Below are positions 41,841 through 44,896 of a stretch of DNA of 64,000 nt, one piece after another (the stretch's first letter is position 1; the number at the start of each line of letters is the position of its first letter). Origin of the DNA: Desulfoscipio geothermicus DSM 3669 (lineage in GTDB: Bacteria; Bacillota; Desulfotomaculia; Desulfotomaculales; Desulfallaceae); the NCBI RefSeq assembly GCF_900115975.1, contig NZ_FOYM01000001.1, forward strand, positions 186,001 to 250,000, written 5' to 3'. Both the position numbers and the translations under genes were made by a program. The notes under the pieces were generated by a model. It was not told where the DNA came from, did no database searches, and saw nothing but the letters and a program-made list of their open reading frames with translations.

Positions 41841-41869
41841 AAAAAACCGGCACTCAAATGAGCGCCGGT
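41841..41869 (-). terminator. attenuator terminator before trpG
   Basis: On the minus strand ACCGGCGCTC-ATTT-GAGTGCCGGT followed by six T. The 5' arm (CGCTCA) can alternatively pair with TGAGTG at the end of the triplet array (41887-41892), giving a simple antiterminator that TRAP binding would block. Confidence 0.85.
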
Positions 41870-41888
41870 ATAGAAATCCGGTAAATCA

Positions 41889-41943
41889 CTCATCTCAGCT
41901 CACCCTGGAAAACACTCCACTCAAACTAAACTCAACTAGCCTC
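41889..41943 (-). promoter_or_regulatory. TRAP-type (G/U)AG triplet array before trpG
   Basis: On the minus strand GAG or TAG occurs with first bases at 41943, 41938, 41933, 41928, 41922, 41917, 41901, 41896 and 41891. A CAG sits in register at 41907 and one register position is degenerate. That is eleven positions spaced about 5 nt, matching the eleven-subunit TRAP ring. Confidence 0.8.
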
Positions 41944-41980: not shown

Positions 41981-43459
41981 TTAACAGCACCTGTCAATAA
42001 CCCTCTTTTCTTCCACCCCCAGCGTGCTGAACATGGCCCGGGCCTTGCTGGCTATTTCCCGGCTTTCCCGCAGCGGGTCTGAATCGGCCACAATTCCCGC
42101 CCCGGCCTGTATGTAGGCCGTATTCCCCTTGATGACCAGGGTGCGGATGGCGATGGCGGTGTCCATGTTTCCGTTGAAGCCCAGGTAACCCACGGCGCCG
42201 GCATATACCCCCCGCCGGCAGGGCTCCAGTTCGTCGATAATCTCCATGGCCCGCACCTTGGGCGCGCCGCTCACCGTACCGGCAGGGAAACAGGCCGCCA
42301 GCGCGTCCAGGGCGTCGGCGCCGGGCGCCAGATCGCCTTCAACCCGGGATACTATGTGCATAACATGCGAGAAATACTCAATGTCCATAAACCTGGGGAC
42401 CTGCACGGTGCCCGGCACGCACACCCTGCCGAGGTCATTGCGCCCCAGGTCCACCAGCATCAGGTGCTCGGCCCGCTCCTTTTCATCCGCCAGAAGCTCG
42501 TCGGCCAACCGTCCGTCCTCCGCCGGGCTGTCTCCCCGGGGGCGCGTACCCGCTATAGGGCAGGTGGTTACCCGCCCGTTCTCCATCCGTACCAGCATCT
42601 CCGGGGAAGAACCGATCACCTTGATATCCCCCAGGTTCAGGTAGTACATGTATGGCGAGGGGTTTACGCTCCTGAGCCGGCGGTAGACCGCAAAGTCATC
42701 CCCGTGAAACCCCACGGCGAAACGCCTGGACAGTACCACCTGGATAATTTCGCCGGAGCGGATGTACTCCAGGGCCCGCCCCACCCGCTGTCTGAATTCG
42801 TGCTCCGGTAAATCCGCCATTATCGCACCCCGCAAGCTAAATTGGCTTGAAACAGGCAGGGGCTTACGCAGGGCCGCCCGCATGGTTTCCAGCTTCCGCG
42901 CCGCCCGCTCGTATAACACCGCCGGGTCGGTTCCGTCCTGCGGGATATTCACCACAAAGGTGACATTATGCCGGACGTGGTCAAAAATGACAACCGTACC
43001 GGGGAAAAACTGCAGGCAGTCGGGCATATGCAATTCATCAGCGGGCGTGCCGGGTAAATCTTCCAGCGAACGCACCGCATCGTAGGCGACAAAACCCACC
43101 GCGCCACCGTAAAAGCGGGGCAATTGCGTCATCTCCGGCACCCGAAAAGAGCTCAGCAATTTGCCCAGGGTTTCCAGGGGCGGTCCGTCCGCCACCCTGA
43201 CCACCCCGCCGCAATGGGCCACCTCCCCCCGCCCGTCCCGGGACCGGAAAGTCAGCAGCGGGTCCAGGGCAATAAAAGAATAACGGCCCAGGTACCGTCC
43301 CCCCTCCACGCTTTCCAGCAGGCATGACGGCCCCCGGCCCGCCAGCTTGAGGAACAAGGTAATGGGGGTTTCGGTATCCGCGTGGCACTCGGTAAACACG
43401 GGCACGAGGTTGTACTGCCGGGACAGAGAAAGATACTCCTGCAATTCGGGATACAACAT
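41981..43459 (-). CDS. trpE: anthranilate synthase component I
   Basis: About 492 residues. It has the N-terminal feedback motif SCLLESVEG, then the chorismate-binding domain with SGEIIQVVLSRRF, CPIAGTRPRG, LVDLGRNDLGRV, HIVSRVEG, FPAGTVSGAPKVRAMEII and the C-terminal IQAGAGIVADS. The Ser-rich motif suggests tryptophan inhibition. The ATG eight bases after GGGAG is preferred; a GTG three codons earlier abuts the site. It is the first gene of the operon, expressed from the promoter at 43764-43792 through a TRAP-type leader. The 41944-41980 spacer is short. Confidence 0.96.
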   Translation of the reverse strand: MLYPELQEYLSLSRQYNLVPVFTECHADTETPITLFLKLAGRGPSCLLESVEGGRYLGRYSFIALDPLLTFRSRDGRGEVAHCGGVVRVADGPPLETLGKLLSSFRVPEMTQLPRFYGGAVGFVAYDAVRSLEDLPGTPADELHMPDCLQFFPGTVVIFDHVRHNVTFVVNIPQDGTDPAVLYERAARKLETMRAALRKPLPVSSQFSLRGAIMADLPEHEFRQRVGRALEYIRSGEIIQVVLSRRFAVGFHGDDFAVYRRLRSVNPSPYMYYLNLGDIKVIGSSPEMLVRMENGRVTTCPIAGTRPRGDSPAEDGRLADELLADEKERAEHLMLVDLGRNDLGRVCVPGTVQVPRFMDIEYFSHVMHIVSRVEGDLAPGADALDALAACFPAGTVSGAPKVRAMEIIDELEPCRRGVYAGAVGYLGFNGNMDTAIAIRTLVIKGNTAYIQAGAGIVADSDPLRESREIASKARAMFSTLGVEEKRVIDRCC

Positions 43460-43485
43460 ATTGGCCACTCCCTTTGCAAAAAATC

Positions 43486-43511
43486 AAAAAACGGCACTCA
43501 AATGAGTGCCG
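43486..43511 (-). terminator. attenuator terminator before trpE
   Basis: On the minus strand CGGCACTC-ATTT-GAGTGCCG followed by six T, 30 bp before trpE. Nearly the same hairpin precedes trpG, so the leader has been duplicated. Confidence 0.88.
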
Positions 43512-43524
43512 CATCAGCATGCGC

Positions 43525-43551
43525 CTATCATCACTCACCTAAGCTCATCTA
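43525..43551 (-). promoter_or_regulatory. TRAP-type array before trpE, promoter-distal half
   Basis: Minus-strand TAG, GAG, TAG, GAG with first bases at 43551, 43546, 43541 and 43536 (5-nt steps) plus a TAG at 43527. It is separated from the promoter-proximal half by the inserted repeat. Confidence 0.72.
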
Positions 43552-43552
43552 A

Positions 43553-43710
43553 AAGAGGTTGTTTGAAAAGTCCGCGCAGGATCCACGTCGAATTTCTGCG
43601 TTGGCTCGGCTTTTCCGGTGCTCACGTATTACGTATACGCTCCGCTCCTCAAGGCCTTCGCCGCCTTGAAATTCTCGTGTCTATCGTGCTCCTTTTCAAA
43701 CACACTTTAA
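43553..43710. repeat. inverted-repeat element inserted in the trpE leader (copy C1)
   Basis: The ends GAGGTTGTTTGAAAAG and CTTTTCAAACACACTT are imperfect inverted repeats. Inside are CGCGCAGGATCCACGTCG and the hairpin TCAAGGCCTTCGCCGCCTTGA-type stem. The larger relative at 44468-44838 is in opposite orientation. It splits the TRAP-type array exactly between triplets. Confidence 0.8.
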
Positions 43711-43712
43711 AA

Positions 43713-43736
43713 CTAAAACTCCGCTCAACTAAACTA
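43713..43736 (-). promoter_or_regulatory. TRAP-type array before trpE, promoter-proximal half
   Basis: Minus-strand TAG, TAG, GAG, GAG, TAG with first bases at 43736, 43731, 43726, 43721 and 43715. Together with the other half this gives 9-10 triplets. Confidence 0.72.
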
Positions 43737-43763: not shown

Positions 43764-43792
43764 ATTATAAACTAGTCATATAAATGTTTCAA
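43764..43792 (-). promoter_or_regulatory. sigma70-type promoter of the trp operon
   Basis: On the minus strand TTGAAA, 17-nt spacer, TATAAT. The transcript would begin about 20 bases before the first triplet of the TRAP-type array. Confidence 0.82.
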
Positions 43793-44467: not shown

Positions 44468-44838
44468 TTAAAGTGTTTGTTCGAAAAGGAACACGATAGA
44501 CACGAGATTTCAAGGCGGCGAAGGCCTTGAGGAGCGGAGCGACTAGTGCCTTCGGCACTAGTATCATTGAAAGCGTGCAGCTTTGACATAAAAGTCCAAT
44601 GTAGGCTTAGAAATTATCCGCATGTTATGAAATAGGACTTTTATATCGCTGCACTTGAAACAATACGTGAGCACCGGAAAAGCCGAGCCAACGCAGTTGG
44701 AAAGGCGCGCTATAATCAGTTCCCTTAGTGCGCGCCTTTCTGTACTTTAGTCCCTAGCCCTTGCCATAAATATGGCAAGGATTTAGTCCTAAAGGTGAAA
44801 TTCGACGTGGATCTCGCGCGGACTTTTCGAACAACCTC
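44468..44838. repeat. larger copy of the trpE-leader element (C2) with two extra structured inserts
   Basis: Reverse orientation relative to 43553-43710. It shares the ends, CACGATAGACACGAGA, AAGGCGGCGAAGGCCTTGAG, GTGAGCACCGGAAAAGCCGA and ATTCGACGTGGATC. Compared with C1 it has two inserts: about 44548-44669 (with hairpins ACTAGTGCC/GGCACTAGT and AAAAGTCC/GGACTTTT) and about 44698-44800 (GGAAAGGCGCGC/GCGCGCCTTTC). No protein-coding frame is visible. The gap 44383-44467 before it is unremarkable. Confidence 0.8.
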
Positions 44839-44896
44839 TTAAAGTACAAGATAAAAGGGCTGATGAAAAATTATTCACCGTAGTTTAATACTTCTA

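Follow-up and report, generated by a model that had tools for sequence, protein, structure and literature searches.

Introduction

In Bacillus subtilis, the sites bound by the TRAP protein consist of 9-11 (G/U)AG triplets separated by spacers of 2-3 nt. At the trpEDCFBA operon the site comprises 11 continuous repeats (PMC3913778), and stable binding of B. subtilis TRAP has been reported for at least seven triplets (PMC4027176). The RNA-contact positions of the protein are K37, K56 and R58 (PMC7430163), and Glu60 has been reported as necessary for TRAP-induced termination (PMC7430163, PMC3913778). A site made of two NAG clusters and a linker, bound by one ring-like regulator, is known for HutP at the B. 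subtilis hut operon (PMC7430163). As to mobile repeats in leaders and transcripts, the pneumococcal trp leader carries a BOX repeat between two T-boxes, and from RNA-seq its authors judged that regulation continues (PMC3049150), while in Neisseria RNase III cleaves Correia elements located within transcripts (PMC10969869).

Here we analysed a stretch of 64,000 nucleotides from Desulfoscipio geothermicus DSM 3669 (the window), in which the leader of trpE resembles the B. subtilis attenuator by its 5'-proximal (G/U)AG array, its overlapping antiterminator, its terminator ahead of trpE and the presence of a TRAP gene in the genome. It differs in that a mobile element divides the site into 5 + 4 triplets, in that the terminator stem is richer in G-C pairs (6/9), and in that trpG lies within the operon under its own attenuator. 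The pneumococcal leader is alike as a mobile repeat in a trp leader that forms its own folding unit, with regulation apparently kept, but BOX sits between two complete riboswitches whereas a single protein-binding site is split here. Correia/NEMIS elements are also MITE hairpins in mRNA that possibly affect expression, but their effect comes through RNase III cutting or promoters and they split no protein-binding site. Finally, the HutP hexamer acts by preventing termination, and the gap in its site is a fixed 20-nt linker rather than a mobile element (PMC7430163). Among the papers searched, which leave out most subscription journals, none describes a mobile element inside a TRAP site or one that splits any other single protein-binding site.

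The TRAP-type site of trpE is divided by a mobile element

Read 5' to 3' on the minus strand, the trpE leader runs through a promoter, a (G/U)AG array, an antiterminator and an intrinsic terminator, which is the arrangement of a TRAP-type attenuator. The features of the locus are the following.

43764..43792, minus strand: trpE promoter TTGAAA-17-TATAAT, matching the consensus at 11/12 positions
43713..43736, minus strand: 5' half of the TRAP site, TAG TAG GAG GAG TAG = TAGttTAGttGAGcgGAGtttTAG, spacers 2,2,2,3
43708..43712, unstranded: target-site duplication TAAAA, upstream copy relative to trpE
43555..43707, unstranded: MITE-like element of 153 bp, a single long imperfect hairpin, present at about 25-30 genomic loci
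43550..43554, unstranded: target-site duplication TAAAA, trpE-proximal copy, which gives UA of triplet 6
43534..43551, minus strand: 3' half of the TRAP site, TAG GAG TAG GAG = TAGatGAGctTAGgtGAG, spacers 2,2,2
43486..43512, minus strand: intrinsic terminator (attenuator) GCGGCACTCATTTGAGTGCCG followed by a T run, together GCGGCACTCATTTGAGTGCCGTTTTTT, also conserved in relatives
41981..43468, minus strand: trpE, intact
41841..41943, minus strand: second TRAP-type attenuator, uninterrupted, upstream of trpG, with a triplet array and the terminator CCGGCGCTCATTTGAGTGCCGG

Along the minus strand the order is thus TAGttTAGttGAGcgGAGtttTAG, TTTTA, the 153-bp element, TTTTA, TAGatGAGctTAGgtGAG and the terminator. 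The 3' half overlaps the last two bases of the proximal TTTTA at one end and the antiterminator further on. The initial annotation had read five triplets, the element and then four to five triplets; we confirm five plus four, divided by the element at 43555-43707, with an additional off-register TAG at 43527-43525 downstream of the 3' half. Joining the flanks gives nine triplets with spacers 2,2,2,3,3,2,2,2. As the alignments of relatives begin at residue 3 or 4 of the annotated protein, trpE likely starts at the ATG at 43459.

Chance as the origin of the triplet array was rejected by dinucleotide shuffling: none of 20,000 shuffles reached the joined run of nine (the longest run obtained was 6), none equalled the run of five in the 5' half, and 130 of 20,000 equalled that of the 3' half. 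Across the window, regular runs of at least four triplets (spacers of 2-3 nt) are confined to both trpE halves, trpG (41943) and 25313, the last being probably due to chance.

The downstream part of the leader also behaves in silico as an attenuator. When the antiterminator is forced in the joined leader, the 3' half is predicted to pair with the 5' arm of the terminator (-27.3 kcal/mol); with the triplets held open, as in a TRAP-like state, the terminator forms instead (-21.7 kcal/mol), with a 9-bp stem (6/9 G-C pairs) followed by six T. Two hallmarks of a TRAP attenuator are found here, namely a (G/U)AG array with 2-3 nt spacers (nine when joined, 5 + 4 in place) and a terminator competing with an antiterminator that overlaps the triplets. 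Scanning against Rfam gave no relevant match, either for the window or for the leader alone.

The insertion cut a triplet that its target duplication restored

Both copies of the 5-bp duplication are identical (TAAAA, or TTTTA on the transcript strand), so that it is perfect. The target can be reconstructed as ...TAG-TTTTA^G-ATGAG, which places the insertion inside triplet 6, between its A and its G. The element boundaries had been described as falling between triplets: the insertion in fact hit within triplet 6, and the duplication rebuilt that triplet on the 3' side. The insertion, the duplication, the intact halves and attenuator, the TRAP gene and the linker position are all read from the sequence.

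The element has the attributes of a MITE. It is short (153 bp), dispersed and without coding capacity; BLAST within the same genome gave 36 matches, and 24 left ends were found; together these group into about 25-30 loci, and the other copies that align without gaps are 90-93% identical to the trpE-leader copy. Its terminal inverted repeats of 10-11 bp (GTTYGAAAAG / CTTTTCRAAC) are set slightly inward, and the final 4-6 bp at the ends do not form inverted repeats. The target duplication has a fixed length of 5 bp, and several other copies are flanked by perfect duplications (TTTAA, TTAAA, TTAAT). None of the six additional left ends examined belonged to a longer element or to a transposase-bearing copy. 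Among the other genomes of the family, 6/15 contain matches to the element, one of them of just 29 bp.

The window holds another copy:

44475..44842, unstranded: second element copy, enlarged by nested inserts, with TTTAA duplications on both sides

This copy is not alone: in many, further sequences are nested at about three fixed sites, namely modules of the GCGCGCTAAGGGAACTGA and TTTTAAGTGCAGCGACATAAAAGTCC types and a TAGGTGCCAGGTGTTGAAAGTTGAAAA palindrome. The family seems to be modular, built of repeats inside repeats.

As RNA, the element is predicted to fold with -52.1 kcal/mol (z -4.07). Its longest unbroken helix is about 11 bp and the remainder is rich in internal loops. In an alignment of eight copies, three pairs have changed on both sides; one of these is a closing-helix pair that went from C-G to U-A in both the trpE-leader copy and copy L141. 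Of the three substitutions private to the trpE-leader copy, two disrupt stem pairs. The stem here accordingly bears no mark of selection, and the insert seems to be tolerated as a side effect of how MITEs are built. The same two changes led us to reject the idea of an element specially shaped for the trpE leader, as did the observation that most other copies, as well as flipped ones, disturb the flanks equally little. We also rejected the idea that the element itself supplies usable triplets, because its eight are irregular and their longest regular run is 2.

Relatives have empty sites with a variable central linker

An uninterrupted trpE leader was found in ten genomes of the same family, and the element is absent from every one of these ten leaders. 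When aligned, these leaders hardly vary in the 3' block AGCTTAGRTGAG and in the terminator, and the 3' half is kept in 10/10 relatives. The insertion coincides with the variable part of the alignment, that is, the central linker of the relatives. Counting (G/U)AG only, their trpE sites consist of two blocks, 5' and 3', and the longest spacer, which lies centrally between them, measures 6-16 nt; some of these central spacers contain CAG or AAG. Most trpG and trpX sites share this two-block plan, and the longest spacers across the orthologous trpE, trpG and trpX sites measure 2-17 nt. Uninterrupted relatives lacking triplets on either side had been named at the outset as refuting the fold-out reading; triplets lie on both sides in the ten leaders, so this check does not refute it. 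Given the two-block sites with a variable central spacer, the element sits in a natural hinge, and this organisation of TRAP sites in the family may explain why the insert is tolerated.

The insert is predicted to fold out and keep the half-sites close

The fold of the trpE leader was computed with and without the insert. The ends GUUUGAAAAG and CUUUUCAAAC, for which pairing had been proposed, are indeed predicted to pair over 10/10 bp with P = 1.00. Between triplets 5 and 6 the mean path takes 4.8 steps when the insert is present and 7.9 in the joined leader, in silico agreement with the proposal that the stem would bring the halves together; the second refutation named at the outset, a fold that leaves them apart, is thus not borne out either. 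With shuffled inserts the path is 26 +/- 17 steps and as short as the native one in 0/120 cases, and with random fragments of the window it is 33 +/- 20 steps, 2.5% being as short. Holding the triplets open is computed to cost 15.2 kcal/mol in the presence of the insert and 14.3 kcal/mol in its absence. Moreover, the hairpin persists in the model when the triplets are held open, its closing helix remaining closed to about 45 C in this TRAP-like state and weakening at 55-65 C. We discarded the preservation of overall flank pairing as support, since 32 of 100 shuffled inserts do as well and the native value is not significant.

In the predicted free RNA, the two half-sites pair with each other whether the insert is present or absent, which opposes TRAP binding. 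They are strongly complementary through many G-U pairs, reaching about -16.6 kcal/mol by nt 75 in the joined leader. This complementarity is partly present in some relatives and would favour the terminator without TRAP.

TRAP and other candidate TRAP leaders in this genome

The genome encodes a TRAP protein (MtrB) of 76 aa (PF02081, E 8e-41). In an ungapped match to 1wap, the positions corresponding to K37, K56 and R58 of B. subtilis are Lys, Lys and Arg. At the position of Glu60 this TRAP has Arg. Help of the Glu60 type is perhaps dispensable here, as the trpE terminator combines a G-C-rich 9-bp stem with six T.

The trpG attenuator, located between trpE and trpG, is intact, in line with the earlier proposal that trpG keeps TRAP control. 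Two further candidate leaders lie elsewhere. A trpX-like ABC transporter gene (C31, upstream of 8104) is preceded by a TRAP-type leader whose terminator is separated from the gene by a 356-bp copy of the element; this leader occurs without the element in four relatives. The pabA leader (C66:20990-21238) is attenuator-like, with a terminator and a NAG array that is weak here and was read by eye, and again a copy of the element lies between the leader terminator and the gene. The pabA leaders share a conserved stretch resembling GACGACTCGGAGACC..GGGGTGAGAACCAGC. Relatives have TRAP-type arrays at both the trpX-like gene and pabA, without the element in the stretches shown.

Hence 3/4 candidate TRAP leaders (trpE, trpX, pabA) are associated with a copy, which by this post hoc count seems more than one would expect for about 30 copies in a 3.65-Mb genome. 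A preference for T/A-rich targets might simply favour terminator-proximal regions.

Discussion

The question raised by this locus is whether trpE is still controlled by TRAP. Function hinges on TRAP wrapping across the hairpin, since the halves hold 5 and 4 triplets, each below seven, the reassembled site holds 9, and stable binding has been reported for at least seven (PMC4027176). It might be that the hairpin stops continuous wrapping and that each half has too few triplets, in which case TRAP attenuation of trpE would be lost or strongly reduced: trpE would be roughly constitutive and restrained mainly by enzyme feedback inhibition, with trpG and the later genes remaining TRAP-controlled. 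The reported minimum and the lack of visible selection on the stem speak for such a loss, and the intact trpG attenuator would make it affordable at trpE, which keeps this main rival alive. Both halves could also be intact but non-functional if the insertion is relatively recent. However, the predicted geometry holds the halves adjacent, the linker of the relatives is flexible, the triplets have not decayed and the terminator is intact, and we regard the loss of control as the less likely outcome.

The remaining alternatives concern what the insert could do besides dividing the site, and we give little credit to each of them. The element offers a long hairpin within the transcript, and RNase III is known to cleave transcripts bearing MITEs (PMC10969869); RNase III or another RNase might thus cut it after transcription, separating the half-sites and altering the lifetime of the trpE mRNA rather than attenuation. 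With a longest unbroken helix of just about 11 bp, many internal loops elsewhere and attenuation decided during transcription, ahead of much processing, this is improbable. Placing 150 nt between complementary halves could mainly change folding kinetics by delaying their pairing, with consequences for TRAP access or for TRAP-independent termination. Indeed, in the computed folds the halves of the joined leader pair by nt 65-75, which would favour the terminator without TRAP, whereas with the insert the 5' triplets stay about as accessible as at the start until the 3' half is made some 150 nt later. Nevertheless, equilibrium folds reach similar pairing with or without the insert and half-to-half pairing is not universal among relatives, making a mainly kinetic effect slightly less probable than RNase cutting. 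The least probable is a promoter borne by the element that would start trpE transcription internally and bypass the 5' half: a weak match on the trpE strand (TTGAAA-17-GAGAAT, 43699-43671, 9/12) owes its TTGAAA to a C-to-T change absent from most copies, but its -10 box is poor, shuffles of the region yield 0.7 +/- 0.8 such sites, and the native promoter upstream is nearly perfect.

The linkers of related sites are flexible, the predicted fold keeps the halves close, no triplet is damaged, and the pneumococcal BOX repeat offers a precedent for an interrupted trp leader that still seems regulated (PMC3049150). On these grounds we lean, with modest confidence, towards an insert that is folded out and tolerated, trpE being still under TRAP control, perhaps in a weakened form. 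On this reading, a MITE-like element transposed into the trpE attenuator at the variable linker between the triplet blocks, and the 5-bp target duplication restored the cut triplet. In the nascent RNA the element would fold on itself, its inverted ends closing a long hairpin and leaving triplets 5 and 6 a few nucleotides apart. We infer that tryptophan-loaded TRAP wraps both half-sites (5 + 4) with the hairpin looped out, and that control of trpE is thereby retained: bound TRAP would block the antiterminator, the terminator would form and trpE would be switched off. The insertion would thus be largely neutral, possibly with weaker or slower repression.

This reading makes a sharp prediction, since each half lies under the reported minimum for TRAP binding and the folded whole lies over it. 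We put forward more tentatively the broader picture in which an element splits a site into halves that are too short, its own hairpin reassembles the site, TRAP binds across about 150 nt, and the element family, having colonised the TRAP regulon (trpE, trpX, pabA), may tune it. The trpE leader would then be a natural experiment on how much structure is tolerated within the RNA site of a ring protein, and a case of a regulatory RNA surviving a transposon.
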